Positions 1 through 29,278 of a DNA stretch of 64,000 nt are shown piece after piece. The notes under the pieces are model-generated. The model made no database searches and had not been told where the DNA came from. It saw only the letters and a program-made list of their open reading frames with translations. Both the position numbers and the translations under genes were made by a program. Within the stretch, counting starts at the first letter, position 1; each line of letters opens with the position of its first letter. Origin of the DNA: a virus; IMG/VR virus record IMGVR_UViG_3300020183_000008, positions 1-64,000 of that record. The stretch is one strand, 5' to 3'.

Positions 1-3000
1 TGGTTCCCTGAACTCCAGTAGTTCCTTGGACTCCGGTTACACCTTGGACTCCGGTTACACCTTGGACTCCTGTCGTGCCTTGGACTCCGGTTGCACCTTG
101 AACGCCTGTGGTACCTTGAACACCTGTCTGACCTTGGACTCCAGTAGTACCTTGAACACCAGTTACACCTTGAACGCCGGTTTCACCCTGAACACCTTGA
201 ACCCCTGTGGTTCCTTGGACTCCTGTCGTGCCCTGAACTCCGGTAGTTCCTTGGACTCCGGTAGTTCCTTGGACTCCGGTTACACCTTGAACCCCTGTAG
301 ATCCTTGGACACCAGTTTGACCTTGAACTCCGGTGGAGCCTTGCACACCTGTCGTGCCTTGAACACCGGTTGTACCCTGAACACCGGTTGTACCCTGAAC
401 TCCTGTTACACCTTGTACACCAGTGGCTCCTTGAACTCCGGTAGTTCCCTGAACACCTGTCGTACCTTGGACTCCAGTAGAGCCTTGGACTCCCTGAACA
501 CCTGTGGTTCCTTGGACTCCTGTCTGACCCTGAACACCGGTTTGACCTTGGACTCCCGTGTTTCCTTGGACTCCTTGGACTCCAGTTGCACCTTGAACCC
601 CAGTTTGACCTTGGACGCCCGTAGCACCTTGGACACCCGTGGATCCTTGAACTCCTGTCGTGCCTTGAACACCTGTTACTCCCTGAACACCAGTGACACC
701 TTGGACTCCGGTAGCTCCCTGAACACCAGTTGTGCCTTGAACACCGGTTGTACCCTGAACTCCGGTTACACCTTGAACTCCTGTAGATCCTTGGATGCCT
801 TGGACTCCAGTTACACCTTGTACACCTGTGGCACCTTGAACTCCCGTGGTTCCCTGAACACCTGTGGTTCCTTGGACTCCAGTAGTACCTTGGACTCCTG
901 TCGTACCTTGAACTCCGGTTGTGCCTTGAACTCCAGTGTTGCCTTGGACTCCTGTGGTTCCTTGAACACCTGTATTTCCTTGGACACCGGTCGCTCCTTG
1001 GACACCGGTCGCTCCTTGGACTCCAGTTACCCCCTGAACACCTGTAGCACCTTGGACTCCGGTGGCTCCTTGGACTCCGGTGGCTCCTTGGACTCCTTGG
1101 ACCCCAGTAGTACCTTGCACACCCGTTGCACCCTGAACACCTGTTGCACCCTGAACACCCGTTGCACCCTGAACACCTGTAGTTCCTTGGACGCCGGTGG
1201 TTCCTTGAACTCCCGTGGAGCCTTGGACACCTGTCGTGCCCTGAACACCCGTAACACCTTGAACTCCAGTATTTCCTTGAACCCCAGTATTACCTTGGAC
1301 TCCAGTATTACCTTGAACCCCTTGAACCCCAGTCTGACCTTGGACTCCTGTAGTTCCCTGAACACCGGTCGTGCCTTGAATACCGGTAGCCCCTTGGACT
1401 CCCGTAGATCCTTGGACACCGGTAGCCCCTTGAACTCCTGTGGTTCCCTGAACCCCAGTTTGACCTTGGACGCCCGTAGACCCCTGAACCCCAGTAGATC
1501 CCTGAACACCTGTCGCGCCTTGAACACCAGTGGCTCCCTGAATTCCCGTAGAGCCTTGAACACCGGTTGTGCCTTGAACACCTGTCTGACCTTGGACACC
1601 AGTCTGACCTTGAACACCGGTCGTACCTTGATTTCCTTGCACACCAGTTGTGCCCTGAACCCCTGTTACACCTTGTACTCCAGTTGCACCTTGAACACCG
1701 GTTGTGCCTTGAACACCTGTCTGACCTTGGACACCAGTCTGACCTTGAACACCGGTAGCTCCTTGGACGCCAGTAGTCCCCTGAACTCCGGTTACGCCTT
1801 GAACTCCGGTTGCACCCTGAACTCCTGTAGTTCCCTGTACACCTGTCGTGCCCTGTACACCTTGGACACCAGTTTCACCCTGAACACCTGTGGTGCCTTG
1901 AATACCTGTTCTACCTTGGACACCGGTTGTACCTTGGACTCCTGTCGTGCCCTGTACACCTGTGGCTCCTTGAACTCCGGTGAAACCTTGAACTCCCGTA
2001 GCTCCTTGGACGCCCGTGGTTCCCTGAACACCGGTAGCTCCTTGAACACCTGTGACACCTTGGACACCGGTCGTACCTTGGACACCTGTTGTGCCTTGGA
2101 CTCCAGTCTGACCTTGGACTCCTGTGGTTCCTTGGACACCTGTGACACCTTGGACACCAGTCGATCCTTGAACTCCAGTGGTACCTTGGACTCCAGTGGT
2201 ACCTTGGACACCTGTGACACCTTGCACCCCTGTGTTGCCTTGAACACCTGTCGTGCCCTGAACCCCTGTTACACCTTGGACTCCAGTAGCTCCTTGGACT
2301 CCAGTAGCTCCTTGGACTCCAGTGGCACCTTGAACACCAGTAGCTCCTTGGACGCCAGTAGCTCCTTGGACGCCAGTAGCTCCTTGGACACCTGTGGCTC
2401 CTTGGATTCCCGTCGCTCCTTGGACTCCCGTAGTTCCCTCAACACCTGTCGCACCTTGGACTCCAGTAGATCCCTGCACACCTGTAAAGCCTTGGATACC
2501 GGTTTCACCTTGCACTCCAGTAGTGCCTTGCAAACCTGTGGTTCCTTGGAACCCTGTCGCACCTTGAACACCTGTCTGACCTTGAACACCGGTAGTACCT
2601 TGAATACCTGTAGTACCTTGAATACCTTGAACACCAGTAGATCCTTGGACACCAGTGTTGCCTTGAACACCTGTGGTGCCCTGAATTCCTTGGACACCAG
2701 TGACACCTTGGACTCCTTGTACACCAGTAGCACCTTGCACTCCGGTTGCACCTTGAACTCCTGTCGCACCTTGAACACCTGTGGTTCCTTGTAATCCTGT
2801 TGCGCCTTGTACACCAGTTGCACCTTGAACGCCTGTCGCACCTTGGACTCCAGTGTCACCTTGAACACCAGTTTCACCTTGGACCCCAGTTGATCCCTGC
2901 ACTCCTGTGGATCCTTGGACTCCTTGGACACCTGTCTGTCCTTGGACTCCCGTAGTGCCTTGGACTCCTGTGGAGCCTTGAACACCTGTCGTGCCTTGTA

Positions 3001-5929
3001 CTCCGGTTGCACCTTGAACACCTGTAACACCTTGAACACCAGTCTGACCCTGAACACCGGTCGCGCCTTGAACACCGGTTGCACCTTGAACACCGGTTGC
3101 ACCTTGGACTCCTGTCGTGCCTTGGACACCTGTGGTTCCCTGTACACCTGTCGTGCCCTGTACACCTGTGGTTCCTTGAACACCTGTAGTTCCTTGGACA
3201 CCAGTCGATCCTTGGACACCAGTTGTTCCTTGGACTCCGGTTACACCTTGAACCCCTGTAGATCCTTGGACACCAGTCGATCCTTGGACACCCGTTTGAC
3301 CTTGGACTCCTTGGACACCAGTTGTTCCTTGGACACCAGTTACACCTTGTACACCTGTAACGCCCTGTACTCCTGTGTTTCCTTGAACTCCGGTTGCACC
3401 TTGGACTCCAGTATTTCCTTGAACTCCAGTCGCGCCCTGAATACCTGTATTGCCTTGGACTCCGGTTGTGCCCTGAACTCCAGTTACACCTTGGACTCCA
3501 GTAGATCCTTGAACACCAGTAGTGCCCTGAACTCCAGTGCTACCTTGAACACCGGTAGCTCCTTGAACTCCGGTAGTGCCTTGAACTCCGGTAGTGCCTT
3601 GAACTCCGGTAGTGCCTTGAACACCAGTTTGACCTTGTACACCTGTATTTCCCTGAACACCGGTTACACCTTGGACTCCGGTTACACCTTGGACTCCTTG
3701 GACACCAGTTACACCTTGAACCCCAGTATTTCCTTGAACTCCAGTATTTCCTTGAACTCCAGTCGAACCTTGAACCCCAGTAAATCCTTGGACACCCGTT
3801 GTACCTTGGACTCCTGTGGAGCCTTGTACTCCGGTCGTGCCCTGAATACCTGTTTGACCTTGAACACCGGTTACACCTTGGACTCCTGTAGTTCCCTGAA
3901 CCCCAGTTTGACCTTGAACTCCGGTTACACCTTGGACTCCTGTAGTTCCCTGAACCCCAGTTTGACCTTGAACTCCGGTTACACCTTGGACTCCTGTGGT
4001 TCCCTGAACTCCGGTTGCACCTTGAACTCCAGTGGCTCCCTGAACACCAGTCGTACCTTGGACTCCGGTTGCACCTTGGACTCCTGTGGTTCCCTGAACT
4101 CCAGTAGTTCCTTGGACTCCGGTTACACCTTGGACTCCGGTTACACCTTGGACTCCTGTCGTGCCTTGGACTCCGGTTGCACCTTGAACGCCTGTGGTAC
4201 CTTGAACACCTGTGGTTCCTTGGAGCCCTGTGGATCCTTGAACACCTGTAGATCCTTGGACACCCGTTTGACCTTGGACTCCTGTTACACCTTGAACACC
4301 TTGGACTCCTGTTACACCTTGGACTCCCGTTGAGCCTTGTACTCCAGTTGAACCTTGAACACCGGTTGCACCTCGGATACCTGTAACACCTTGAACACCG
4401 GTTGCACCTTGGATACCTGTAACACCTTGAACACCTGTAACACCTTGGACTCCAGTTTCACCTTGAACACCTGTGGTTCCTTGGACACCGGTTCTACCTT
4501 GTACACCAGTTGTGCCCTGAACTCCTGTCACCCCTTGGACTCCAGTTTCACCCTGTACACCTGTGGTTCCTTGAACACCTGTAGTTCCTTGGACCCCAGT
4601 CGATCCTTGGACTCCTTGGACCCCAGTAGTACCTTGCACACCCGTTGCACCCTGAACACCTGTAGTTCCTTGAACACCTGTAGTTCCTTGAACACCAGTT
4701 GAGCCTTGGACTCCCGTAGTTCCCTGAACACCTGTCGTGCCTTGAACACCTGTTACACCTTGAACACCGGTTTGACCTTGTACTCCAGTGGCACCTTGGA
4801 CACCTGTAACACCTTGTACTCCGGTTACACCCTGAACACCTGTCGTGCCTTGGACTCCGGTTGCACCTTGAACACCTGTAACACCTTGAACACCTGTCGT
4901 GCCTTGAACACCGGTTGTACCCTGAACACCTGTCGTGCCTTGGACTCCTGTCGTACCTTGAACACCAGTGGCTCCTTGAACTCCGGTAGTTCCCTGAACA
5001 CCTGTCGTACCTTGGACTCCAGTAGAGCCTTGGACACCTGTGGTTCCCTGAACACCTGTGGTTCCTTGAACACCAGTTGAGCCTTGGACTCCCGTAGTTC
5101 CTTGAACACCCGTTGCACCTTGGACTCCTGTATTTCCTTGAACACCCTGAAGACCCGTTGTGCCTTGAATTCCTGTCATTCCCTGAACACCGGTTGCACC
5201 TTGGACACCTGTAGTCCCTTGAACTCCAGTGGCTCCTTGAACTCCGGTTACACCTTGAACACCTGTGGTTCCTTGGACACCTGTGGTTCCTTGTAACCCT
5301 GTGATGCCTTGAACTCCCGTGGAGCCTTGGACTCCGGTAGATCCTTGAACACCCGTGAAGCCTTGGACTCCAGTAGATCCTTGAACTCCCGTGGATCCTT
5401 GGATGCCAGTCGTACCTTGGACTCCGGTTACACCTTGGACTCCAGTGGCTCCTTGAACTCCTGTCGTGCCTTGGACTCCGGTCTGACCCTGGACTCCGGT
5501 TGCACCTTGAACACCAGTTGAGCCTTGCACTCCTGTGGTTCCCTGAACACCTGTGACTCCTTGGACACCCGTGGATCCTTGAACTCCTGTCTGCCCTTGT
5601 ACTCCCGTGGATCCTTGGACACCAGTGGATCCTTGCACTCCAGTAGTTCCTTGGACACCAGTGGATCCTTGCACTCCAGTAGTGCCTTGGACACCAGTGG
5701 ATCCTTGCACTCCAGTAGTTCCTTGGACTCCTGTGGCTCCTTGGACTCCTGTGGCTCCTTGGACTCCTGTGGCTCCTTGGACACCCGTGGCTCCTTGGAC
5801 TCCTGTGGCTCCTTGGACTCCTGTGGCTCCTTGGACTCCTGTAGCCCCATCAACACCAAACACACCCGTAGCCCCTTGGACTCCGGTTGCACCTTGAACA
5901 CCTGTAGTCCCTTGAACCCCAGTAACACC
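1..5929 (-). repeat. Collagen block 4 (18-bp coding tandem repeat, continues off the left edge)
   Basis: More than 1970 residues of G-x-T-G-V-Q collagen with no globular domain, so it is longer than the blocks bounded on both sides. Bases 1 to about 127 repeat almost exactly at about 4087-4213, evidence of a segmental duplication 4086 bases apart. Confidence 0.9.
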
Positions 5930-8900
5930 CATGTCACCAGCGGGTGCAAAAGAAACTACAACTTGCTGTCCGTTGACGAAATTGTTGGATGCATCAACGT
6001 AGTTTACGGTGATAATTCTCCAGTTAGAACCTCCAAACCCTGTACCATTTGTTACATTCGTAACTTTGAATTTAGCATAAACAGTCTGGTCGCTTCCTAA
6101 GTGGAAAATCAAATAGCCCTTAGTAGGATTCGTTGATTGTTTCCAAGAATCTAACCAACCTGAAACAGATGGATCGAGAGAGTCTAAGTTATTGAAAACA
6201 TCGATATAGATGAATCCAGGATTCATCGAGCTGACTGTACCAGATGAAAATCTAAAGTATGACCCACCTGGACGCGAGGCTGATGTACTGTCGGAGAAGT
6301 AATAATATTCACTATAACCGCTTATAGGACCTTGGCTTCCAGTGACACCTTGGACACCTGTAGCTCCTTGGATGCCTGTGGTACCTTGGACTCCAGTAGT
6401 ACCATCGATTCCGCGAACACCAGTTAAACCCTGAACTCCTGTTTGACCTTGAACACCGGTTTCACCTTGGACTCCAGTTACACCTTGAATTCCCTGAACA
6501 CCTGTCGTGCCTTGGACACCAGTGGCACCTTGGATGCCAGTTTCACCTTGGATCCCCGTGGTGCCTTGAACTCCTGTCTCACCTTGCACACCAGTGCTTC
6601 CCTGAACTCCTGTGGTGCCTTGGACGCCCGTAGCACCCTGTACACCTGTAGCACCCTGTACACCCGTAGCTCCCTGAACACCTGTGGCTCCTTGGACTCC
6701 AGTAGCTCCTTGGACGCCCGTAGCTCCCTGAACACCTGTGGCTCCTTGGACGCCCGTAGCTCCTTGGACGCCCGTAGCTCCTTGGACGCCCGTAGCTCCT
6801 TGGACGCCCGTAGCTCCTTGGATGCCTGTAGCTCCTTGGACTCCTGTTGTGCCTTGAATTCCGGTTTGACCTTGGACTCCCGTAGCCCCTTGGACACCAG
6901 TCTGACCTTGGACTCCTGTGGCTCCTTGGACTCCGGTTACGCCTTGCACCCCTGTCTCACCTTGAACACCAGTAGCACCTTGAACTCCGGTTGTGCCTTG
7001 AACTCCAGTGTTGCCTTGGACTCCTGTCGTGCCTTGAACTCCGGTTGTGCCTTGAACTCCAGTGTTGCCTTGGACTCCTGTCGTGCCTTGAACTCCAGTG
7101 GAACCTTGGACTCCCGTAGCTCCTTGAACACCAGTGGAACCTTGGACTCCCGTAGCTCCTTGAACACCAGTGGAACCTTGAACCCCCGTAGCTCCCTGAA
7201 CACCTGTTGTGCCTTGGACACCTGTGGTGCCTTGGACTCCAGTAGCTCCTTGGACACCTGCCGTGCCCTGAACCCCTGTTACACCTTGTACTCCAGTAGC
7301 TCCTTGGACTCCAGTAGCTCCTTGGACTCCTTGGACTCCTGTCGCTCCTTGGACTCCTGTCGTGCCTTGGACTCCAGTAGCTCCTTGGACACCTGTTACA
7401 CCTTGGACTCCAGTAGCACCTTGCACACCCGTTGCACCCTGAACACCGGTTGTACCCTGAACTCCTGTCGTGCCTTGGACTCCCGTGGTTCCTTGGACTC
7501 CAGTCGTCCCTTGTACACCGGTTTGACCTTGAATACCCGTAGATCCTTGGACACCTGTGGCTCCTTGGACTCCTGTCGCTCCTTGGACTCCTGTTGTGCC
7601 TTGGACTCCAGTAGCTCCTTGGACACCTGTTACACCTTGGACTCCAGTCGTACCCTGAACTCCAGTAAATCCTTGGATCCCTGTTTGACCTTGGACTCCA
7701 GTAGTTCCTTGGACTCCCGTTGTTCCCTGAATACCTGTGTTACCTTGGACTCCCGTCGTGCCTTGAATCCCGGTGGAGCCTTCAACTCCTGTCGTACCTT
7801 GGACACCGGTTACACCCTGAACCCCAGTCGCTCCTTGAACACCGGTTGTGCCTTGCACTCCCGTTGCACCCTGAACCCCAGTTGCTCCCTGAACACCGGT
7901 TGAGCCTTGCACTCCCGTTGCACCTTGAACTCCTGTCGTACCTTGGATACCGGTGACCCCTTGGACTCCGGTTAGACCTTGAACACCGGTGGTTCCTTGA
8001 ACTCCAGTAGCTCCTTGAACTCCAGTATTTCCTTGGACACCGGTGACCCCTTGGACTCCGGTTAGACCTTGAACACCGGTGGTTCCTTGAACTCCTTGGA
8101 CTCCGGTAGCTCCTTGAACTCCAGTATTTCCTTGGACACCTGTGGTGCCTTGGACTCCGGTAGCTCCTTGAACTCCAGTATTTCCTTGGACACCGGTGGT
8201 TCCTTGAACTCCAGTGGCTCCTTGGACACCTGTGGTGCCTTGGACTCCAGTTACACCTTGAACTCCCGTAGTTCCTTGAACTCCAGTAGCTCCTTGAACT
8301 CCAGTTGTACCTTGGACACCAGTAGCTCCTTGGACACCTGTTACGCCTTGGACTCCGGTTGCACCTTGAACCCCAGTGGTTCCCTGAACGCCTGTTGTGC
8401 CTTGGACTCCGGTAGCTCCTTGGATTCCGGTAGCTCCTTGGACTCCGGTAGCTCCTTGAACTCCAGTATTTCCTTGGACACCTGTGGTGCCTTGGACTCC
8501 CGTGGAGCCTTGGACACCTGTCGTGCCCTGAACACCCGTAACACCTTGAACTCCAGTATTTCCTTGGACACCGGTGGTTCCTTGAACTCCCGTGGAGCCT
8601 TGGACACCTGTCGTGCCCTGAACACCCGTAACACCTTGAACTCCAGTATTTCCTTGAACACCGGTCATTCCTTGGATACCCGTTGTTCCTTGGACACCTG
8701 TCGTGCCCTGAACACCCGTAACACCTTGAACTCCAGTATTTCCTTGAACACCGGTCATTCCTTGGATACCCGTTGTTCCTTGAACACCTGTCTGTCCTTG
8801 AAGACCTGTCTGACCTTGAACTCCCGTGGTTCCTTGAACTCCGGTTACACCTTGGACTCCGATTACGCCCTGAACTCCGGTTACACCCTGAACTCCGGTC

Positions 8901-11900
8901 GTGCCTTGAACTCCTTGGACACCTGTCGCACCTTGGACACCAGTAGCACCTTGAACACCAGTAGTGCCCTGAACTCCAGTGCTACCTTGAACACCGGTAG
9001 CTCCTTGAACACCGGTAGCTCCTTGAACTCCGGTAGTGCCTTGAATACCAGTCGTGCCTTGAATACCAGTCGTGCCTTGAATACCGGTTTCACCTTGGAC
9101 ACCAGTTGCACCTTGGACACCAGTTGTACCTTGGACACCGGTTACCCCTTGAATCCCCTGTACACCTGTGGATCCTTGCACACCGGTTGAGCCTTGAACA
9201 CCTGTCGTACCCTGGACACCAGTGGTTCCTTGAACTCCAGTGAACCCTTGAATACCTGTTACACCTTGGACTCCGGTTTCACCTTGTACACCTGTGGCTC
9301 CTTGAACTCCCGTGGAACCTTGAACTCCCGTAGCTCCTTGAACTCCTGTGGTTCCTTGAACTCCTGTGGTTCCTTGAACTCCCGTGGTTCCCTGAACACC
9401 AGTTACTCCTTGGACACCAGTTGCACCTTGGACACCAGTAGCACCTTGGACACCAGTTGCACCTTGGACACCTGTTTCACCCTGAATACCAGTCTGACCT
9501 TGCACACCTGTGGTGCCTTGGACTCCGGTAGTGCCTTGAACACCTGTGGTTCCTTGGACCCCTGTGGATCCCTGAACACCTGTGGTTCCTTGGACTCCAG
9601 TGGCACCCTGTACACCTGTAGATCCTTGAACTCCAGTGGAACCTTGAACTCCCGTAGCTCCTTGAACTCCAGTGGAACCTTGAACTCCCGTAGCTCCTTG
9701 AACACCCGTTGCACCTTGCACTCCAGTAGACCCTTGAACTCCGGTTGTGCCTTGCACTCCTGTTTCACCTTGGACTCCTTGAACACCAGTAGCTCCTTGA
9801 ACTCCTGTAGTTCCCTGAACACCAGTTTGACCTTGGACTCCGGTTTCACCTTGAACTCCTTGAACACCAGTTGTACCTTGCACTCCAGTCTGACCTTGGA
9901 CACCTGTCGTGCCTTGAACTCCTTGAACACCAGTTGTGCCTTGGACTCCGGTTGCCCCTTGAACCCCTGTAAATCCTTGAACACCTGTTAAACCCTGAAC
10001 TCCTTGAACACCTGTTAAACCCTGTACACCGGTTGTACCATCTACACCAAAAACACCGGTTGCACCCTGAACACCGGTTGTTCCAAAATCGCCTGCCGGT
10101 GCAAATGAGACGATCAATTCCTGATTATTTTGGAAAAGGTTTGATGCATCAACATAATTAACGGTAACGATTCTCCAGTTCGTTCCACCTAGACCTGTTC
10201 CATTTTCAACATTCAGAATTCTAAATTTTGCATAAATAGTCTGATTGTCACCTAGGTGGAAAATCAAATAACCTTTAGTAGGATTTGTTGATTGTTTCCA
10301 AGAGTCCAACCAACGATATACGGACTCATCGAGATTCGATGCAGTAAAGGCATCGATATAAACAAATCCTGGTGTCATCGTAGCCGGATTTGCCGCTGAA
10401 AATCTTACGAATGATGCACCAGGTCTTGATGCTGTGGTGCTAGTTGAAAATTTGTAATATTCACTATTTCCGCTGATAGGTCCTCGGTTACCTGTAGGTC
10501 CTTGCAAACCTGTGGCACCTTGGATTCCTGTTGTACCTTGAACTCCAGTCAAACCCTGAATTCCGGTGATCCCCTGAACACCAGTTTCACCTTGGACACC
10601 TGTGGCACCTTGAATTCCAGTGTCACCCTGAACTCCAGTTAAACCCTGAACTCCTTGGACACCTGTAGCTCCTTGGATTCCAGTTTCTCCTGTGCCTTGA
10701 ATACCTGTGGCTCCTTGAACACCCGTGCCACCACCAGGGATACCCGTAGCACCTTGGATTCCAGTTTCACCCTGTACCCCCTGTACCCCCGTGGTTCCTT
10801 GGACTCCTGTTGTGCCTTGGACTCCTGTCGTGCCTTGGACTCCTGTCGTGCCTTGGACTCCAGTAGTTCCCTGAACACCTGTCGTGCCTTGGACGCCAGT
10901 GGCACCTTGAATACCTGTTAAGCCAACTGGACCTTGAATACCGATTTGACCTGTCGCACCTTGAACGCCAGTAGACCCTTGCACTCCCGTGGTGCCTTGA
11001 ACGCCTGTTACACCTTGAACCCCTGTAGATCCTTGGACACCAGTAGATCCTTGAACACCAGTAGATCCTTGGACACCTGTAGCACCTTGAACACCAGTCT
11101 CACCTTGGACACCAGTATTACCTTGAATACCTGTGGAGCCTTGGACTCCAGTTTCACCTTGGATACCAGTCTCACCTTGCACCCCTGTGGAGCCTTGAAC
11201 ACCGGTTTCACCTTGGACTCCAGTGTTGCCTTGGACTCCTGTCGTGCCTTGAACTCCAGTGGAACCTTGGACTCCCGTAGCTCCTTGAACACCAGTGGAA
11301 CCTTGGACTCCCGTAGCTCCTTGAACACCAGTGGAACCTTGAACCCCCGTAGCTCCCTGAACACCTGTGGTTCCTTGGACTCCAGTAGCTCCTTGGACTC
11401 CAGTAGCTCCTTGGACTCCAGTAGCTCCTTGAACTCCAGTAGCTCCTTGAACTCCCGTAGCACCCTGAACACCTGTTGCACCCTGCACACCTGTCGTGCC
11501 TTGGACACCTGTGGTGCCTTGGACTCCAGTAGCTCCTTGGACACCTGTCGTGCCCTGAACCCCTGTTACACCTTGTACTCCCGTTGCACCCTGAACACCT
11601 GTCGTGCCTTGTACACCTGTGGTTCCTTGGACTCCAGTAGCTCCTTGGACTCCAGTCGTCCCTTGTACACCGGTTTGACCTTGAATACCCGTAGATCCTT
11701 GGACACCCGTGGCTCCTTGGACTCCTGTCGCTCCTTGGACTCCTGTCGTGCCTTGGACTCCAGTAGCTCCTTGGACACCTGTTACACCTTGGACTCCAGT
11801 AGCACCTTGCACACCCGTTGCACCCTGAACACCGGTTGTACCCTGAACTCCTGTCGTGCCTTGGACTCCCGTGGTTCCTTGGACTCCTGTCGTTCCTTGG

Positions 11901-14900
11901 ACCCCTGTGGATCCCTGAACCCCCGTGCTTCCTTGAACCCCAGTAGATCCCTGAACACCTGTCGCGCCTTGAACACCAGTGAAGCCTTGGACTCCTGTGG
12001 TGCCTTGAACTCCTGTAACACCTTGCACTCCTGTCGTGCCTTGCACACCGGTTGCACCTTGAACTCCTGTCGAACCTTGGACACCGGTTGCACCTTGGAC
12101 TCCTGTCGTGCCTTGGACTCCGGTTGCACCTTGAACGCCTGTGGTACCTTGAACACCTGTCTGACCTTGGACTCCAGTAGTACCTTGGACTCCTGTTGCC
12201 CCTTGGACACCAGTATCTCCTTGCACACCCCGAACACCGGTCTGACCTTGGACTCCAGTAGCACCTTGGACACCAGTTGAGCCTTGAACTCCAGTTAAAC
12301 CAACCGGACCTTGAATACCTATTTGACCAGTAGCACCTTGGACACCAGTTGCACCTTGAATACCGGTTGTGCCTTGCACTCCTGTGGTGCCTTGTACTCC
12401 CGTTGTTCCCTGAATACCCGTTGCACCTTGCACTCCAGTAGACCCTTGAACTCCGGTTGTGCCTTGCACTCCTGTTTCACCTTGCACACCTGTCGTGCCT
12501 TGTACTCCCGTTGTTCCCTGAATACCCGTTGCACCTTGCACTCCAGTAGACCCTTGAACTCCGGTTGTGCCTTGCACTCCTGTTTCACCTTGCACACCTG
12601 TCGTGCCTTGGACACCCGTTGCACCTTGCACTCCAGTAGACCCTTGAACACCCGTAGTGCCTTGGACTCCGGTAGCTCCTTGGACTCCAGTTGCACCTTG
12701 AACACCAGTCGTACCTTGGACTCCTGTGGTGCCTTGAACACCAGTTACTCCCTGAACTCCCGTAGCTCCCTGAACACCTGTCGTACCTTGGACTCCTGTA
12801 GCACCCTGAACACCTGTCGCGCCTTGAACACCAGTGAAGCCTTGGACTCCTGTGGTGCCTTGAACACCTGTAGTGCCTTGAACACCAGTTTCACCTTGGA
12901 CACCTGTTGTGCCTTGAACACCTGTAGTGCCTTGAACCCCAGTTTGACCTTGAACTCCGGTGGAGCCTTGCACACCTGTCGTGCCTTGAACACCGGTTGT
13001 ACCCTGAACACCGGTTGTACCCTGAACTCCTGTTACACCTTGTACACCAGTCGAACCCTGGACTCCTGTGGATCCTTGGACTCCAGTGTTACCTTGAACA
13101 CCAGTAGCTCCTTGGACTCCGGTTACACCTTGGACTCCCGTAGTGCCTTGGACACCCGTTGCACCTTGGACTCCGGTATTTCCTTGAACACCTGTGAATC
13201 CTTGCACACCAGTTAAACCAACAGGACCTTGAGTACCTATCTGACCGGTGACTCCTTGAACTCCTGTAGATCCTTGGACTCCGGTAGTACCCTGAACACC
13301 CTGAACACCGGTTGCACCTTGGACTCCCGTTGTGCCCTGTACTCCAGTAGCTCCTTGAACACCTGTGGTGCCTTGAATTCCGGTGGCACCCTGAACTCCG
13401 GTTACGCCTTGGACACCCGTCTCACCTTGAACTCCGGTGGTGCCTTGGACACCCGTGGTTCCTTGGACACCAGTTACACCTTGGACTCCAGTTTGTCCTT
13501 GAACACCCGTAGCACCCTCAACTCCGGTTGCACCTTGGACTCCAGTGGCACCCTGTACACCGGTGGTGCCTTGGACTCCAGTAGTTCCTTGGACTCCCGT
13601 TGTTCCCTGAATACCTGTGTTACCTTGGACTCCCGTCGTGCCTTGAATCCCGGTGGAGCCTTCAACTCCTGTCGCTCCTTGGACACCTGTTGTGCCTTGG
13701 ACTCCAGTTGTGCCTTGTACCCCAGTTTGACCTTGAACACCAGTTGAGCCTTGGACACCTGTAGTTCCCTGAACACCTGTCGCGCCTTGGACTCCTGTAT
13801 TTCCTTGAACACCTGTAGAACCTTGAACACCAGTCTGACCTTGGACACCTGTAGCTCCTTGAACACCAGTGGTTCCCTGAACACCGGTAGTTCCCTGAAC
13901 ACCAGTCTGACCTTGAACACCAGTAGTTCCATGAACACCAGTAGTTCCCTGAACACCAGTTACTCCTTGAAATCCAGTCTGACCTTGAACACCAGTAGCA
14001 CCTTGCACTCCTGTCGTGCCTTGGACTCCAGTTACGCCTTGGACTCCTGTCGTGCCTTGGACTCCCGTGGTGCCTTGCACTCCTGTCGTGCCTTGGACTC
14101 CAGTTACGCCTTGGACTCCTGTCGTGCCTTGGACTCCTGTCTGACCTTGGACACCAGTTACACCTTGTACACCGGTTACACCCTGTACTCCTGTGTTTCC
14201 TTGAACCCCAGTAGATCCCTGAACACCTGTCGCGCCTTGAACACCAGTGGCTCCCTGAATTCCCGTAGAGCCTTGAACTCCAGTTTCTCCTTGAATTCCT
14301 TGAACTCCGGTAGATCCTTGGACTCCTGTCTGACCCTGAATACCTGCCACACCCTGAACACCAGTAGCACCTTGATCACCTGCTGGAGCAAAGGTTACAA
14401 TCAACTGTTGACCATCTACGAACAAATCGGATGCATCGACATATTCAACCGTAACAAGACGCCAGTTTTCCCCACCGAAGCCGCTTCCATTTTCAACGCT
14501 AATAACTTTGAATTTTACGTAAACACTTTGATCATCACCTAGGTGGAAAATCAAATAACCCTTGGTGGAATTAGTTGCACTATCCCAACTATCGATCCAC
14601 GCCGCGACCGAAGGATCAAGAGATCCTTGGTTCGTAAAGGCATCGATATAAACGTAGCCTGGAGTCATCGAACTTGGGTCATCCGATGAAAATTTCACAT
14701 AAGTTCCACCAGGACGTGTTGCACTCGTATCTGAAGAGAATATGTAATATTCACTATACCCGCTGATAGGTCCTCGGTTACCGGTGACACCTTGGACACC
14801 GGTTGCACCTTGAATACCGGTCATTCCTTGAACACCGGTCATTCCTTGAACACCCTGAACACCGGTCGTACCTTGGACACCGGTTGCACCTTGCACTCCA

Positions 14901-17900
14901 GTCTCACCTTGTACACCGGTATCACCTTGTACACCTTGAACACCGGTCGTACCTTGGACACCGGTTGCACCTTGCACTCCAGTCTCACCTTGGACACCAG
15001 TGGTTCCTTGAACACCAGTAGCTCCCTGGACTCCTGTGGCTCCATCTACACCTGTAGCCCCTTGAACTCCCGTAGTTCCTTGGACTCCTGTAGCCCCCTG
15101 AACACCTGTCGTGCCTTGGACTCCTGTGGCACCCTGAACACCAGTGGCTCCTTGGACTCCCGTGGTTCCTTGGACACCTGTCGTTCCTTGGACACCTGTG
15201 GCACCATCTACACCAAAAACACCGGTTGCACCTTGAACTCCTGTAGCACCTTGCACACCCGTTGCACCCTGAACACCGGTTGTACCCTGAACTCCTGTCG
15301 TGCCTTGGACTCCCGTGGTTCCTTGGACACCTGTCGTTCCTTGGACCCCTGTGGATCCCTGAACCCCCGTGCTTCCTTGAACCCCAGTAGATCCCTGAAC
15401 ACCTGTGGTGCCTTGAACACCAGTTTCACCTTGGACACCGGTTGCACCTTGGACTCCTGTCGTGCCTTGAACACCTGTCTGACCTTGGACTCCAGTGGCT
15501 CCCTGAACTCCTGTTTCACCTTGAACACCTGTTTCACCTTGAACACCAGTTCTACCTTGGATGCCTGTCTGACCTTGGACACCTGTCGTGCCTTGCACAC
15601 CGGTTGCACCTTGGACTCCTGTCGTGCCTTGCACACCGGTTGCACCTTGGACTCCTGTCGTGCCTTGCACACCGGTTGCACCTTGAACTCCTGTCGAACC
15701 TTGCACACCGGTCTGACCTTGGACTCCAGTGGAGCCTTGAACACCAGTCTGACCTTGGACTCCTGTGGTGCCTTGAACACCAGTCTGACCTTGGACTCCA
15801 GTGGCTCCTTGGACACCTGTCTGTCCTTGGACTCCAGTGGCTCCTTGCACTCCCGTTGAACCTTGCACTCCCGTTGAACCTTGGACTCCTGTGGAACCTT
15901 GCACTCCCGTTGAACCTTGGACTCCCGTAGCCCCTTGGACTCCCGTTGAACCTTGGACTCCCGTAGCCCCTTGGACTCCTGTGGAACCTTGCACTCCCGT
16001 TGAACCTTGGACTCCTTGGACTCCAGTAGATCCTTGGACTCCCGTTTGACCTTGAACACCGGTCTGACCTTGGACTCCAGTAGCACCTTGGACACCAGTT
16101 GAGCCTTGAACTCCGGTTAAACCAACCGGACCTTGAATACCTATTTGACCAGTAGCACCTTGGACACCAGTAGCACCTTGGACACCAGTAGTGCCCTGTA
16201 CCCCTTGGACTCCTGTGGAACCTTGGACTCCTGTTGTGCCTTGGACTCCTGTGGCTCCCTGAACGCCTGTCGAACCTTGGACTCCGGTGGCTCCTTGGAC
16301 TCCGGTGGCTCCTTGGACTCCTGTAGTCCCTTGAACTCCAGTAGCACCTTGAACACCAGTTGATCCTTGAACTCCAGTAGCACCTTGAACACCAGTTGAT
16401 CCTTGAACACCAGTTGATCCTTGGACTCCCGTGGTGCCTTGAACACCGGTAGCTCCTTGGACCCCTGTAGTGCCTTGAACACCAGTTGATCCTTGGACCC
16501 CTGTAGTGCCTTGAACACCTGTAGCTCCTTGGACCCCTGTAGTGCCCTGTACACCTGTGGCACCTTGGACTCCTGTTTCACCTTGGACTCCTGTAGTTCC
16601 TTGAACTCCAGTCGATCCTTGGACACCGGTTCTACCTTGTACACCTGTAGCACCTTGGACACCCGTAGCGCCTTGGACTCCTGTCTGACCTTGGACACCA
16701 GTTACACCTTGGACACCTGTGGTTCCTTGGACACCTGTAGTGCCTTGCACTCCTGTGGTTCCTTGGACTCCAGTGGTGCCTTGAACGCCCGTGGTACCTT
16801 GGACTCCTTGAACCCCAGTGGCTCCTTGGACACCTGTTACACCTTGCACTCCCGTTGTGCCTTGGACTCCTGTTGCACCTTGAACGCCCGTGGTGCCTTG
16901 AACACCTGTATTTCCTTGAACACCTGTATTTCCTTGGACTCCTGTCGTGCCTTGGACTCCTGTCGTGCCTTGGACTCCTGTCGTGCCTTGCACTCCTGTC
17001 GTGCCTTGGACTCCAGTTACGCCTTGGACTCCTGTCTGACCTTGGACACCAGTTACACCTTGTACACCGGTTACACCCTGTACTCCTGTGTTTCCTTGAA
17101 CCCCAGTAGATCCCTGAACACCTGTCGCGCCTTGAACACCAGTGAAGCCTTGGACTCCTGTAGCACCCTGAACTCCGGTTGTTCCTTGAACACCAGTCTG
17201 ACCTTGGACACCTGTGTTACCTTGGACTCCAGTGGTGCCTTGAACACCAGTAGTTCCATGAACCCCAGTGGTGCCTTGAACACCGGTCTGACCTTGGACA
17301 CCAGTAGCACCTTGGACACCAGTTGAGCCTTGAACTCCGGTTAAACCAACCGGACCTTGAATACCTATTTGACCAGTAGCACCTTGGACACCAGTAGCAC
17401 CTTGGACACCAGTAGTGCCCTGTACACCTGTCGTGCCTTGGACTCCTGTCGTGCCTTGGACTCCTGTGGAACCTTGGACACCAGTTACACCTTGGACTCC
17501 TGTGGATCCCTGAACACCAGTGGCTCCTTGGACTCCTGTCGTGCCTTGGACTCCTGTGGAACCTTGGACACCAGTTACACCTTGGACTCCTGTGGATCCC
17601 TGAACACCAGTGGCTCCTTGGACACCAGTTGAGCCTTGAACACCAGTAGTTCCCTGAACCCCTGTCGCTCCCTGGACACCTGTGGCTCCTTGGACTCCAG
17701 TTGTTCCCTGAACTCCGGTAGTTCCTTGGACTCCCGTAGCTCCTTGGACTCCGGTTGTGCCTTGCACTCCTGTGGTTCCCTGCACCCCGGTTCTGCCTTG
17801 AACTCCAGTTTCACCTTGAACACCTGTCTGACCCTGTACTCCTGTGGCTCCCTGAACGCCTGTCGAACCTTGGACTCCGGTGGCTCCTTGGACTCCGGTG

Positions 17901-19780
17901 GCTCCTTGGACTCCTGTAGTCCCTTGAACTCCAGTAGCACCTTGAACACCAGTTGATCCTTGAACTCCAGTAGCACCTTGAACACCAGTTGATCCTTGAA
18001 CACCAGTTGATCCTTGGACTCCCGTGGTGCCTTGAACACCTGTTACACCTTGCACTCCCGTAGCACCTTGAACGCCCGTGGTGCCTTGAACACCTGTATT
18101 TCCTTGGACTCCTGTATTTCCTTGGACTCCTGTCGCGCCTTGGACTCCTGTCGCGCCTTGGACTCCTGTCGCGCCTTGAACCCCAGTGCTTCCTTGCACT
18201 CCCGTCTGACCCTGAACCCCAGTGCTTCCTTGCACTCCTGTAGCTCCTTGGACTCCTGTAGCTCCTTGGACTCCTGTGGCTCCTTGGACACCTGTCTGTC
18301 CTTGGACTCCCGTAGTGCCTTGGACACCTGTAGTGCCTTGCACTCCTGTGGTTCCTTGGACTCCAGTGGTGCCTTGAACGCCCGTGGTACCTTGGACTCC
18401 CGTAGTTCCCTGAACACCTGTCGTGCCTTGGACTCCTGTGGCACCCTGAACACCAGTGGCTCCTTGGACTCCCGTAGTTCCCTGAACACCTGTCGTGCCT
18501 TGGACTCCTGTAGAACCTTGTACACCAGTCGCACCTTGGACACCTGTAGCGCCTTGAACTCCTGTCGTGCCTTGGACTCCTGTAGAACCTTGTACACCTG
18601 TAGCGCCTTGGACACCAGTAGCACCTTGTACACCAGTCACACCGTACTGACCAGTTTGACCTTGAGCACCTTGAAGACCATCAGATCCGGTTACACCTTG
18701 AACACCAGTTTCACCTTGAACACCTGTTACACCTTGAACACCAGTTAAACCGACAATACCTGTGATACCTTGAACACCTGTTTGTCCGTAGATACCTGTA
18801 ATACCTTGAACACCTGTTTCACCAATAGCACCTTGCAAACCGGTTTCACCCGCAACACCGGTTTGACCTTGGACACCTGTAAATCCTGAAGGACCTTGTA
18901 CACCTTGTACACCTGTTGATCCTTGAACACCCGTGCGACCTTGAATACCCGTTGATCCTTGAACACCACCAACACCAGTAGCACCTTGAACACCAGTGAA
19001 ACCTGGACCTTGCAGACCTGTAGCACCCTGAACACCAGTGTTTCCGAGGGGACCTTGAACACCTGTCTGCCCAGCAACACCTTGAACACCTGTCTGCCCA
19101 GCGACCCCTGTGGCACCTTGGACACCAGTTTCACCTTGGACACCTGTAGATCCTTGAACTCCCTGAACTCCGGTAGCTCCTTGGACACCAGTGTCGCCTT
19201 GAACTCCGGTTGCACCCTGAACGCCGGTGGTTCCTTGAACACCTTGAACACCTGTGGTTCCTTGAACCCCAGTTCTTCCTTGGACACCTGTTACACCCTG
19301 AACTCCAGTTTGACCTTGAACACCTTGAACACCGGTACCACCTTGAAGACCTTGAGATCCTTGGATACCTTGCAATCCTTGGATACCGGTGTTGCCTTGA
19401 ACACCTTGGACTCCCGTGGTTCCCTGAACACCTGTGCTACCTTGAACACCCGTGGTTCCTGAAATACCTGTACTACCTTGAACACCAGTGAAACCTGGAC
19501 CTTGCAGACCTGTAGCACCTTGTGAGCCGATACCTGTCGTACCTTGCACACCAGTTACACCTTGCAGACCTCTAATACCCGTGGTGCCTTGTTGTGATTG
19601 AATCGTCGCAAACGAAGGCTTCCACTGTGAATCAGAAATGTCGAAGTAGTAAAACGCGTTAATGTTTTTAACGTAGCGTACTTCGTTTTCTTGAGGTGAG
19701 ACAACGCTAGATAAATCAGCGATGTTGTTTACAGCATAGGTGATTGCATAGGCTAATTGTTGGTAAAACGGAGTGCTCAT
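1..19780 (-). CDS. Giant collagen-like phage fibre protein (C-terminus beyond the window)
   Basis: A single frame opens at the ATG at 19780, with AGGA eight bases upstream. I found no in-frame stop down to base 1, giving at least 6593 codons. I checked the non-repeat segments codon by codon and scanned the repeats. Residues 1-64 are a non-collagenous head with several aromatic residues. Gly-Xaa-Yaa triplets begin at residue 65 and follow the hexapeptide G-x-T-G-V-Q, where x is V, T, A, S, N, E, Q or F. Three related globular domains of about 130 residues interrupt the collagen at about residues 1672-1800, 3103-3231 and 4486-4616. Proline is almost absent, and Thr or Gln occupies the Y position. 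Collagen triplets in phage proteins are known to form trimeric rods, so a long virion fibre is the likely role (inference). Frames on the opposite strand are by-products of the repeat. The C-terminus is not visible. Confidence 0.9.
5933..6330 (-). other. Interspersed globular domain C of the collagen protein
   Basis: The third copy, from S-G-Y-S-E-Y-Y-Y to S-F-A-P-A-G-D-M. Inside the domain it is closest to copy B, sharing the [12 protein letters not shown] core. Read in the collagen frame it contains no stop codon. Confidence 0.75.
6331..10084 (-). repeat. Collagen block 3 (18-bp coding tandem repeat)
   Basis: About 1250 residues of G-x-T-G-V-Q collagen between domains B and C. Near 6700-6850 there is a run of near-identical units with x = Ala, which suggests recent local expansion. 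Confidence 0.9.
10088..10479 (-). other. Interspersed globular domain B of the collagen protein
   Basis: The second copy of the roughly 130-residue domain, from S-G-N-S-E-Y-Y to S-F-A-P-A-G-D. It keeps [16 protein letters not shown] and Y-V-D-A-S. It lies about 4.3 kb after domain A and 4.15 kb before domain C in the direction of translation. Confidence 0.75.
10480..14371 (-). repeat. Collagen block 2 (18-bp coding tandem repeat)
   Basis: About 1290 residues of G-x-T-G-V-Q collagen between domains A and B. Sub-blocks recur elsewhere in the gene. For example, 11647-11800 matches 7495-7648 with two mismatches, and a stretch near 13594-13675 matches one near 7702-7795. Confidence 0.9.
14381..14772 (-). 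other. Interspersed globular domain A of the collagen protein
   Basis: About 130 non-collagenous residues entered through G-N-R-G-P-I-S-G and left through F-A-P-A-G-D. The domain shares with the other two copies the motifs S-E-Y-Y, P-G-x-V/I-Y-I-D, W-x-[16 protein letters not shown] and Y-V-D-A-S. It resembles domains I associate with marine phage fibre proteins (from memory, not searched). It may help trimer registration or receptor binding (inference). Confidence 0.75.
14773..19588 (-). repeat. Collagen block 1 (18-bp coding tandem repeat)
   Basis: About 1600 residues of uninterrupted Gly-Xaa-Yaa with the 18-bp, six-residue period G-x-T-G-V-Q. Near its N-terminal end the pattern is less regular, including a G-I-G-S break around 19530 and the only G-P-G triplet I noticed, around 19495. 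The block ends at the first globular domain. Confidence 0.9.
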
Positions 19781-19951: not shown

Positions 19952-21436
19952 GTGAATACTCTTAGTCTTTGTATGATTGTCAAAAATGAAGAATCTACGA
20001 TCGAAAGATGCTTAAATTCAACGCAAGATGTTTGCGATGAAATCATCATAGTAGATACGGGAAGTACCGACCGCACCAAAGAAATATTAAAGTCTTTTCC
20101 AAAAGTGAAAATTTTCGATTTCACATGGGTAGAGGACTTCGCTGCGGCGCGTAACGAAAGTTTCCGACACGCAACGAGCGACTTAATGTTCTGGTTGGAT
20201 GCGGATGATGTACTCAAAGAAAAAGACGTCCAAATTCTTCGCAAATACAAAAGCACCCCCTTGAATCAATTAGCTGACTGCTACGTTGGTAAATATCAAT
20301 ATAGCCATGATAGTTATGACAATGTTCTAACAACGCTGATGCGAGAAAGAATCTTTAAAAGAAGCCCTTTAATTAAATGGAAATACAAAATTCACGAGTG
20401 TATCCCCCTCAACTGCTTCCGAAAAGTAGAAAATACAGATTTTGAAGTACACCACTACAAGACTGCCCCTCAAATTCAAAGATCTGAGGGTAGGAATTTA
20501 AGAATACTAAAAGCGTGCGTAGATGATCCATCCGAGCGGTGCCCGCGCTATGAATTTTATTATGCCAAAGAATTAGCTATCGTTAGAAAGTATGATGAAG
20601 CCGTAACATGGTTTAAGGAATACTTAAAGCACTGGGATTTTTTCGAAGATGCCCATTACGCTTATTATAAATTAGCTGAAATCGCTCTTGAGAAAAGAGA
20701 TTTCGATGAAGCAGTCAATCAATGCATGGATGCTTTAAAATTAGACATGCGGAAAGCCGACCTGTATTGCTTGCTAGGTTTGATTTTCATAAATCGTGAG
20801 CGTTGGGACTTGGCGAAATTCTGGTACGAGGCTGCTCTAAATATGCCAAGACCCGATGACTCATACGGATTCTTCGATATGGACAGACACACCTTCTCAC
20901 CAAACTTTCAGCTTTCTTATGTTTTTTATAAACTTGGAGATTTCGATTCTGCTTTAAAACATATCAACAGGTGTTTGCAATTTAGACCTAAAGACCATCA
21001 AGCTCTCGTGAACAAGGCTTTTATAGAAAAAGAACAAAAACTAAAAATAAGAAAGAATCACCACAACCTAGCTATTTATATCCCCTTCTCATTTGATGAG
21101 AACAACCCAAACATTAGAATTCGCAAACTGAATTTAGTTGAAGAACTCAAAAACAAAAATCTGGATGCAGATATCATTCAAGATTTTCCAAGTTTGATGA
21201 ACTATGACAGAATCATCGCGCATAGCCCCTTGAACCCCAAAGAGATGAGACTACTACAAAGAAGCGGGAAAGTGGTGTGCTTAGATATAGCTGAAGGGGT
21301 ATTCTCGAATTCATTTGATGAACAAATAAGCAAATATGATATAGTTTTATGCTCCTCTAGTAAAATCAAAGAATATTGCTTAAACTTGAACATGAATTCA
21401 GTTCATCTTCCTGATAGTCATGAGGCTTCAATATGA
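19952..21436 (+). CDS. GT2 glycosyltransferase with TPR region and a GT-B N-lobe-like tail
   Basis: The protein has 494 residues and a GTG start preceded by AAAAGGAAAAG. Residues 5-90 are a family 2 glycosyltransferase nucleotide-binding fold, with S-L-C-M-I-V-K-N-E-E at the start, D-T-G-S-T-D at 35-40 and the metal-binding D-A-D-D at 83-86. Residues about 190-350 look like tetratricopeptide repeats. Residues about 350-494 resemble the N-lobe of a GT-B glycosyltransferase, including N-P-N-I-R-I-R-K-L, which matches D-P-N-L-R-I-K-N-L in the intact GT-B gene at 25243. The gene overlaps the next by four bases (ATGA). It probably transfers sugars in the host cytoplasm. Its position beside the collagen gene suggests fibre glycosylation (inference). 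Confidence 0.8.
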   Translation: MNTLSLCMIVKNEESTIERCLNSTQDVCDEIIIVDTGSTDRTKEILKSFPKVKIFDFTWVEDFAAARNESFRHATSDLMFWLDADDVLKEKDVQILRKYKSTPLNQLADCYVGKYQYSHDSYDNVLTTLMRERIFKRSPLIKWKYKIHECIPLNCFRKVENTDFEVHHYKTAPQIQRSEGRNLRILKACVDDPSERCPRYEFYYAKELAIVRKYDEAVTWFKEYLKHWDFFEDAHYAYYKLAEIALEKRDFDEAVNQCMDALKLDMRKADLYCLLGLIFINRERWDLAKFWYEAALNMPRPDDSYGFFDMDRHTFSPNFQLSYVFYKLGDFDSALKHINRCLQFRPKDHQALVNKAFIEKEQKLKIRKNHHNLAIYIPFSFDENNPNIRIRKLNLVEELKNKNLDADIIQDFPSLMNYDRIIAHSPLNPKEMRLLQRSGKVVCLDIAEGVFSNSFDEQISKYDIVLCSSSKIKEYCLNLNMNSVHLPDSHEASI

Positions 21437-23778
21437 TTTCCGTTGTTTGGTGCGGAATGGGTGGCGGATCCTACGCCGCAAAACAATTGCGCCCAATGAT
21501 CGAATCTCTTGGTATGAAATTGACAATCATATCGGAATGGGCAGATGCGGATGTGCCCTGGAAAATAGATACATGGCAAGAAGAAGTTAAGAAGCATGAC
21601 ATCGTTATCTGCCCTACGGATCAAAACAAATTTCCATTCAAAGGGAATAACAAAGTCACCCATTTTATGGCTTTGGGTATGCCTGTCATCGCTTCACCTC
21701 TTCAGTCCTATAGAGAAATAATCGAACATGGCGTGTCGGGCTTCATCGCAGACAATTTCTCAGATTGGAAAAAGCATCTTAAAACTTTACGGGACAACCA
21801 CGATTTAAGAAAAACGATCGGTGAAACAGCGCGAAGTAAAGTGACAAAAGAATATTCGATCCAATCCACCGCTGATAAAGTTCTTTCTTTATTTGAAAAT
21901 CAGTCTAAAACTATTGATATCATCATCCCGAATTACAATAACACCCGCTATCTTCTCACGACACTCGAAAGCCTAAAACGCAACACTGTCGGTTTGTACA
22001 AGGTAGCCATCGTTGATTCATCTTCAGATGACATCTCACCGATAGAGAATTTCGTAGAGAAAAACTCAAATAATTTTTCCCTTTGGCGATTACCTGTACG
22101 TTCGTGCTTTTCAAAAGCCGTGAATTTAGGAATGTCTCGTACAGGTTCAAAATGGGTTATGGTGGGAAATAACGACTTGCTTTTTACCAAAGGATGGGAT
22201 GCCCCACTTCGAGAATTTTTAGAAAAAAATCCAAATGCTATGGTTCAACCTCTTTCGAATTGTGACAAAGGTTGGTTACATAACTATGAATTGAAAACAA
22301 AAAGCGGTCTCTCTTTGGAAGCTGGTATCCACAAGCTCGATACCGTGGACATCTTTGATATTGAACAAAGCACTCTAACTCGAAATGAAATCATCGAACG
22401 TGAAAAACTAGCATTTTATAGTGTTATTTTTGATCGTCGGTTATTAAGTCTAATCGGTGACCTTGATGAAGAGTTTCTGAATGGTGGCGAAGATTTCGAT
22501 TTTTGCTACCGAGCTCGGAAAGCGGGGTGGTCATTTTTTTCAATTCATAACTCTTTTGTTTTTCATTTTGGAGGAAAAACCCGAAAAGTCTCTGAAGATG
22601 AAAATTATGAGAGACACCATGAAGAAGATAGGTACAATAATTCGAGACTAAATCGAAAACTTTCAAAATCCGTTGTTGCATTTTATTTAGGCGCTGGTTG
22701 GGAAAAATGGGATGAAACAAATCTCATTTCTGGTGGTATTGGGGGAAGCGAAACAGCAGCGATCTGGATGGCAAGAGAATTGTCTAAGTTCGGCTATCAG
22801 GTAAAAGTTTTTGCTGATCCTGCACATGAACATCAGGACTCTAGTGGATTGGATGTTGAGTATATCCACTACAGTAAATTTAAAAGGTACGCTGAAAAAA
22901 CTTTCATCGACTTTTTAGTTTGCTCAAGAACAGTGGAACCTTTGCACGGGTTGATCCATGCTTATAGAAAATACGTGTGGATTCATGATGTGTTTATCGG
23001 TTCCAACCGAAACATGGATGTATGTCTCGATGATGTGACTAAATACCTCGTGTTGTCCGAATGGCACCGTGATTTTGTTTCTGAACATCACAGTATTCCC
23101 AAAAACAAAATCTTCATGACGACAAACGGCATAGATCCGAATAGATACGCTGAAGTCAACAACATCAAGAAGGTTCAAGGTCAAATCTTTTATTCTTCAT
23201 CCCCAGATAGAGGTCTGGATACGCTCTTGTATCTAGGTGAATATCTAAAAGATCGTGTACCTAATTTCAAAATCAAAGTCGCTTATGGCTTCAATAACTG
23301 GGAAAAAGCAGTTCTATTTAGAAATAATCCTAGAGAAGTTGAAGAAATGAGAAAGCTGAAAGAGGCTTTAAAGCGACCTTTCGTGGATTTCTTGGGACGT
23401 ATTGACCAGAATCAACTTGCAAAAGTTCAGATGGAATCATCGGCTTGGATGTACCCTAGCCGGTTCACTGAAACGAATTGCATCACAGCTATCGAGGCAG
23501 GTTGGTCTAAAAACGCGATTTTAGCGACACATCTTGCGGGTGTAACCACTACCGTAAAAGATGGAGGGACTCTTATCCACGGAGATGCATACACGAAAGA
23601 ATATCGAGAGAAATTCTTAAATGAAGCGGTAAAATTACTGAACGATCAAGAATACCTGATCGAGCAACAAGAACGAGCCTACGCCCGTATGCAAAGGTTT
23701 ACTTGGGCTAACGTCGCAAAACAATGGCATGAAATGTTCCAACAAGATGTTTACAAGGAAATTCAATGGTCACCTTAA
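21433..23778 (+). CDS. Multidomain glycosyltransferase: GT-B C-lobe-like, GT2, then GT-B/GT4
   Basis: The protein has 781 residues in three parts. Residues 1-150 look like the C-lobe of a GT-B enzyme (K-G-N-N-K-V-T-H-F-M-A-L-G-M-P-V-I-A-S-P), apparently completing the N-lobe at the end of the previous gene. Residues about 160-400 are a GT2 domain (I-D-I-I-I-P-N-Y-N-N, then G-G-E-D-F-D-F-C-Y-R-A-R-K-A-G-W). Residues about 415-770 are a fuller GT-B domain (G-G-S-E-T-A-A-I-W-M-A, S-S-P-D-R-G-L-D, and E-A-G-W-S-K-N-A-I near the end). Several transfer steps by one polypeptide are likely, but donor and acceptor are unknown. It overlaps the downstream methyltransferase by 13 bases. Confidence 0.85.
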   Translation: MISVVWCGMGGGSYAAKQLRPMIESLGMKLTIISEWADADVPWKIDTWQEEVKKHDIVICPTDQNKFPFKGNNKVTHFMALGMPVIASPLQSYREIIEHGVSGFIADNFSDWKKHLKTLRDNHDLRKTIGETARSKVTKEYSIQSTADKVLSLFENQSKTIDIIIPNYNNTRYLLTTLESLKRNTVGLYKVAIVDSSSDDISPIENFVEKNSNNFSLWRLPVRSCFSKAVNLGMSRTGSKWVMVGNNDLLFTKGWDAPLREFLEKNPNAMVQPLSNCDKGWLHNYELKTKSGLSLEAGIHKLDTVDIFDIEQSTLTRNEIIEREKLAFYSVIFDRRLLSLIGDLDEEFLNGGEDFDFCYRARKAGWSFFSIHNSFVFHFGGKTRKVSEDENYERHHEEDRYNNSRLNRKLSKSVVAFYLGAGWEKWDETNLISGGIGGSETAAIWMARELSKFGYQVKVFADPAHEHQDSSGLDVEYIHYSKFKRYAEKTFIDFLVCSRTVEPLHGLIHAYRKYVWIHDVFIGSNRNMDVCLDDVTKYLVLSEWHRDFVSEHHSIPKNKIFMTTNGIDPNRYAEVNNIKKVQGQIFYSSSPDRGLDTLLYLGEYLKDRVPNFKIKVAYGFNNWEKAVLFRNNPREVEEMRKLKEALKRPFVDFLGRIDQNQLAKVQMESSAWMYPSRFTETNCITAIEAGWSKNAILATHLAGVTTTVKDGGTLIHGDAYTKEYREKFLNEAVKLLNDQEYLIEQQERAYARMQRFTWANVAKQWHEMFQQDVYKEIQWSP

Positions 23779-29208: not shown

Positions 29209-29278
29209 AATTAACAATCCTAACAATATCGTTTTAGAGTTTTTATAAAAAGATACATTTGTTTATATCCGCACACCT

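Follow-up and report, generated by a model that had tools for sequence, protein, structure and literature searches.

Known collagen-like systems and the locus analysed

Collagen-like phage fibres, giant phage proteins and collagen O-glycosyltransferases are already known, each separately. The longest collagen domain of the E. coli prophage side-tail fibres EPclA-D measures 322 aa (PMC3368898), and predicted proteins of huge phages reach 7,694 aa (PMC7162821). In C. difficile, SgtA combines a glycosyltransferase (GT) domain with TPR repeats, is encoded immediately upstream of bclA3, and in vitro modifies collagen peptides of BclA3 with beta-O-GlcNAc on their threonines (PMC7157674). Here we describe a giant collagen-like fibre gene and the two glycosyltransferase genes next to it, found in bases 1-64000 (the window) of the 155,270-bp viral contig IMGVR_UViG_3300020183_000008. 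We propose, with a probability of roughly 0.6, that the gene encodes a modular, trimeric and probably threonine-O-glycosylated tail fibre of a jumbo phage, with a collagen part of record length.

Like EPclA-D, for which a trimeric tail-fibre role was proposed, the predicted protein has Gly-X-Y blocks that are flanked and separated by globular phage-fibre domains; its collagen, however, exceeds 6,100 aa per chain and is nearly devoid of proline. With C. difficile BclA3/SgtA it shares a collagen protein rich in Y-position threonine, adjoining an enzyme of GT-A plus TPR type, and the TNF-like trimeric head of Bacillus BclA has a fold similar to that modelled for the fibre tip of a relative. BclA and BclA3 are filaments of the spore surface and not of phages, and BclA3 is a 58-kDa protein with GPT triplets, whereas the fibre described here has GVQG-x-T units, giant size and a different orientation of the GT gene. 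Huge-phage proteins are of comparable length, some of them tentatively structural, but collagen is not mentioned in the main text of that report (PMC7162821). The tail fibre of Pelagibacter phage HTVC010P contains relatives of the insert domain described below (25% identity, E=8e-4), followed by a collagen-like stretch; this stretch is only short and the whole protein has 448 residues. Micrometre-long triple helices are formed by the cuticle collagens of annelids and Riftia, the Riftia helix being stabilised by glycosylated Y-position threonine; these are proteins of the animal extracellular matrix, and the resemblance to the phage fibre is convergent.

A stop-free frame with collagen-like repeats

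Translation of the minus strand from the ATG at 19780 down to base 2 gave 6,593 codons without any stop, the repeat blocks included. This agrees with an earlier sequence-only reading, which had claimed a single gene of at least that length. A Shine-Dalgarno-like AAAAGGA lies 5' of the ATG. Since base 1 of the window is also base 1 of the contig, the frame exits the contig and not merely the window, and its stop, already placed outside the window by that reading, lies outside the record.

The visible chain contains 2,040 Gly-X-Y triplets, which account for 6,120 of its 6,593 residues (~93%), and the longest runs comprise 470, 406, 419 and 659 triplets. Along the frame we found 136 PF01391 matches above the Pfam cut-off, with E-values down to 2.5e-11. 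Of the 2,040 triplets, 1,986 have Gln or Thr at Y, giving the rhythm G-V-Q-G-x-T, and the chain includes 32 prolines and no cysteine. Its pI is 4.2 and its computed mass 603 kDa, which falls short of the more than 650 kDa given before. The long false frames predicted for the opposite strand are present, reaching 930 aa.

In paired GVQGxT units, codon positions 1, 2 and 3 differ at 11%, 7.5% and 60%, respectively, and the 275 GVQGTT units are encoded by 129 distinct 18-mers. Divergence at third positions, with positions one and two conserved, argues that the frame is not a product of chance and has been selected as protein. Unit similarity is almost independent of spacing within the array, declining only from 0.75 to 0.735, which suggests an old and mixed array that has also undergone some larger recent duplications (203, 175 and 152 bp).

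Domain architecture of the visible chain

An N-terminal domain of 64 residues (19589..19780, minus strand, as are all parts of the gene) shows 54% identity to the start of the homologous protein in a related phage and would attach the fibre to the virion. Collagen block 1 follows (aa 65-1672; 14765..19588), with the run of 470 triplets, and then globular insert 1 (aa 1673-1800; 14381..14764). Block 2 (aa 1801-3102; 10475..14380) is separated by insert 2 (aa 3103-3229; 10094..10474) from block 3 (aa 3230-4486; 6323..10093), which holds the 419-triplet run. Insert 3 (aa 4487-4614; 5939..6322) precedes block 4 (aa 4615 onward; 2..5938), where 659 triplets run without interruption and the chain leaves the contig. 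All three inserts are read in one frame with the repeats, as had been noticed before. Insert 1 has 65% identity to insert 2 and 69% to insert 3, and by sequence the three are copies of one predicted globular domain. The structure model of the insert (pLDDT 65) matched domains in phage and giant-virus proteins that bear the name "collagen triple helix repeat" (E-values down to 7e-8), while its comparison with the PDB gave no significant match. Pfam scans of the N-terminus and the insert yielded no match to the PfN, Pf2 or PfC domains.

Relatives of the locus

A search with the terminase led to a 355,874-bp jumbo phage contig (G001) whose terminase is 69% identical and which has the terminase-to-portal gene order in common with the window contig; the portal and terminase genes lie within the window. 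The right end of G001 contains 2,814 codons of a collagen frame whose N-terminus is related to that of the window gene, and at the left end there is a collagen frame that terminates in a stop. The last 87 bp of G001 equal its first 87 bp, and when the ends are joined, 3,082 residues can be read in one frame without a stop. By means of a two-row alignment of the N-termini, two further, smaller contigs with the same gene were found (L023 and L024), one with 987 and the other with 1,461 codons until the contig ends. The presence of this gene at the same locus in three other contigs supports its earlier interpretation as a collagen-like phage fibre gene. Scans of viral contigs with the insert alignment or with the single N-terminus gave no match, and the C-terminal domain of G001 as a probe returned G001 alone, so that the 3' end of the window gene itself was not found. 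No collagen match was obtained in the 485-kb phage LR745208 (terminase identity 37%).

In G001, a baseplate-wedge gene (phrog_6, 1.1e-22) is located ~8.8 kb upstream of the fibre gene on the same strand; judged from this contig, the fibre gene appears to sit in a tail/baseplate module, the far side of the window gene lying beyond the end of its own contig. All 15 indels between G001 and L024 are multiples of three residues, one of them 99 residues long and carrying an extra domain, and G001 has inserts whose kinds differ from those in the window gene. Both observations indicate that the fibre changes its length in register and exchanges domains. L023 and G001 (as locus L022), which come from two metagenomes, agree exactly over the 9,994 bp that precede the fibre gene, and an in-frame block duplication sets their collagen parts apart; this reflects either fast length change or strain variation, or else a difference in assembly.

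The fibre tip of G001 was modelled (pLDDT 60) as an all-beta, eight-strand domain with a TNF/C1q-like fold. Its structural neighbours are TNF-like lectins (Z ~10), a cyanophage tail-fibre domain (Z 8.3) and BclA (Z ~8.2 at 14% identity). A Z score near 8 may by itself reflect a common arrangement, but the occurrence of several collagen-tip proteins among the neighbours makes the fold match more telling. With the sequences of the G001 insert and tip, searches of the PDB returned nothing significant.

Adjacent glycosyltransferases and their linkage to collagen genes

The two glycosyltransferase genes adjoining the fibre gene were not mentioned in the sequence-only reading. The first (19952..21436, plus strand) encodes a 494-aa enzyme, a putative collagen O-glycosyltransferase, in which Pfam detects a GT2 domain (8e-26) followed by TPR repeats, the layout of SgtA. 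Its start lies 171 bp from that of the fibre gene, in divergent orientation. The second (21433..23778, plus strand) encodes a GT4-GT2-GT4 fusion of 781 aa according to Pfam, with a putative role in glycan extension. Both genes face the fibre gene in four of four contigs, and the window enzymes are 57% (GT2-TPR) and 61% (second GT) identical to those of both relatives compared. The best natural PDB matches of the GT2-TPR enzyme are GmaR and SunS (1.8e-22), which are protein or peptide glycosyltransferases. An assignment as SunS itself was rejected, the score being 84.9 bits and the cut-off of NCBIfam TIGR04195 350. By analogy with SgtA, we propose that the GT2-TPR enzyme glycosylates threonines of the fibre. 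Outside the window, at contig positions 76704-79761 and adjoining another glycosyltransferase, there are RmlA-, RmlB- and RmlD-like dTDP-rhamnose genes, of which RmlD scores above its cut-off and the RmlB-like and RmlA-like ones below theirs; they could supply the putative glycan of the fibre.

Linkage of this enzyme family to collagen genes was examined at 77 viral loci of GT2-TPR homologues, all outside the present lineage, with a collagen run defined as at least 10 GXY triplets and 64 viral-contig loci around ribonucleotide reductase as controls. Such a run was present at 37 of the 77 loci versus one of the 64 controls (Fisher p=2.6e-11). The 77 loci formed 56 clusters, 25 of them with a run, which was downstream in 23 and on the same strand in 23, at a median gap of 946 bp; in 20 clusters it was within 2.5 kb, compared with 8.7 expected under random placement. 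Bacterial GT2-TPR loci, mostly from Firmicutes, had collagen runs in 43 of 80 cases, with 71% Thr at Y. No run was found within 8 kb of the GT homologues of the Manatee Spring podovirus, Alexandra and PaBG, which shows that the pairing is common but not universal. Some GT2-TPR phage loci (L065, 11326-19062, as well as L092, L094 and L096) contain several distinct collagen-like genes or runs, an arrangement in which a single enzyme might serve a whole set of fibres.

Contig ends and repeats

The first 127 bp of the contig (1..127) are an exact duplicate of 4087..4213, and an exact 127-bp repeat is likewise found at the far end of the contig. We take these terminal repeats to be a probable break of the assembly graph at k=127, which implies that the gene extends past base 1. 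Within the gene, only three pairs of exact repeats are longer than 127 bp: 17838-18040/16245-16447 (203 bp), 11713-11887/7327-7501 (175 bp) and 11217-11368/7056-7207 (152 bp). The exact codon count is conditional on the short-read assembly across these three repeats. Closing the contig on itself to reach a stop was considered and rejected, as its two ends share no 15-mer.

Weighing of alternative explanations

The glycosyltransferases might modify host surface glycans, as in superinfection exclusion, or phage DNA, the neighbourhood then being a host-interaction cassette only. PHROG labels such as O-antigen conversion would fit, and glycosyltransferases in the host-recognition clusters of pelagimyophages have been read as modifiers of host glycans (PMC7029224). 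We nevertheless consider this rather doubtful, because the nearest natural PDB relatives of the GT2-TPR enzyme act on proteins or peptides, SgtA provides a precedent on BclA3 threonines, and collagen runs beside the homologues are far more frequent than around the control gene. Another question is whether the gene, although real and collagen-like, owes its length to short-read joins at repeats of modules, from one gene or several strains, with a true size of ~3,000 residues as in the relative. The long repeat pairs inside the gene and the 127-bp repeats at both contig ends give reason for this, as do the termination of all four contigs within the fibre gene and the closure of the G001 homologue at 3,082 aa. 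The synonymous sites of the repeat units are strongly diverged, though, recurring 100-mers number only 698 of 19,680, no frameshift occurs across the 6,593 codons, and graph breaks normally collapse or shorten arrays rather than create ~19 kb of distinct sequence. An inflated or scrambled length is therefore unlikely in our view.

As to its place on the virion, the protein could decorate the capsid as a head fibre or whisker. Collagen-like capsid spikes are known, namely SPP1 gp12 (PMC7602432), which would be far shorter than the present chain, and one gene downstream of the G001 fibre has a head/packaging PHROG match. This location is improbable in light of the baseplate-wedge gene upstream of the fibre gene in G001, the match of the fibre N-terminus to a tail-fibre PHROG, and the predominance of tail-fibre families among the matches of collagen proteins from other phage loci with a linked GT.

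Several points weigh against the interpretation as a glycosylated tail fibre. The match of the N-terminal domain to phrog_3904 (tail fiber) is weak (E=0.0021, 17.4 bits), the structure models have pLDDT values of 60-65, a modest confidence, and the record stops before the 3' end and tip of the gene. The GT gene is divergent from the collagen gene here, whereas in most other phages it is situated upstream on the same strand, and the same GTs could modify host glycans instead. In the linkage tests, shared ancestry was handled by clustering only, and the controls, which are viral loci only and so do not extend to the bacterial count of 43/80, represent one gene family. The three repeat pairs exceeding 127 bp may conceal misjoins, and with them errors of order or copy number.

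Proposed organisation of the fibre and its implications

For the tail fibre that we favour, the short N-terminal domain would anchor the protein to the virion, and a rod would be built from the Gly-X-Y blocks, each hundreds of triplets long, with globular beta domains interrupting it. The trimer would begin to fold at a TNF/C1q-like tip, seen in the relative only, which would also contact the surface of the host. With almost no proline, the stability of the rod must come from another source. The GT2-TPR enzyme may add a sugar to the Y-position threonine in nearly every second triplet and the second glycosyltransferase may extend the glycan, so that O-glycans on these threonines would stabilise the collagen rod in place of proline. 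The gene would grow, shrink and swap domains in whole-triplet steps, keeping the glycine register. A fully helical arrangement of all visible triplets would correspond to a rod of ~1.75 micrometres (0.286 nm per residue); the inserts may instead serve as hinges. The sequence itself establishes the frame, its architecture, the conserved locus and the linkage of the enzyme family to collagen genes, and from these we infer the tail position, the trimer, the glycosylation and the extended length.

More tentatively, and with somewhat less than even confidence, we suggest a broader view: that one giant chain yields a micrometre-scale fibre, the longest known in any virus or bacterium; that its proline-free stability is due to dense Thr O-glycosylation by its own SgtA-like enzyme; and that this pairing is general and has gone unrecognised in many phage tail fibres. 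In the literature searched, which lay mostly outside the subscription journals, we found no account of a collagen-linked phage glycosyltransferase or of a collagen of this size. If true, phage collagen would be stretched more than 10-fold past the 322-aa domain of the E. coli prophage fibres, raising the question of how a virion carries and folds a fibre possibly longer than the host cell. It would also provide a testable rule, that many phage collagen fibres are paired with a cognate protein glycosyltransferase, make proline-poor, glycan-stabilised collagens a candidate material, and help to account for the breaking of such genes in short-read assemblies.

Other features of the contig

Three neighbouring radical-SAM proteins are encoded on the plus strand of the window (47593-48696, 51358-52413 and 52410-53333), an unusual cluster for a phage; most of the families that they match best are maturases modifying peptides, and all of these matches score far below the curated cut-offs. 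A Dps/ferritin-like protein (28795-29226, minus strand; E 7e-7, below the cut-off) has a 55% identical homologue in G001. At the right end of the contig (153.6-155.27 kb) the peptide EAAQPRLYEYEYEGMKFYMEEKKPQGVRLPAGKALFT is repeated in at least two frames and represents a second repetitive gene family.

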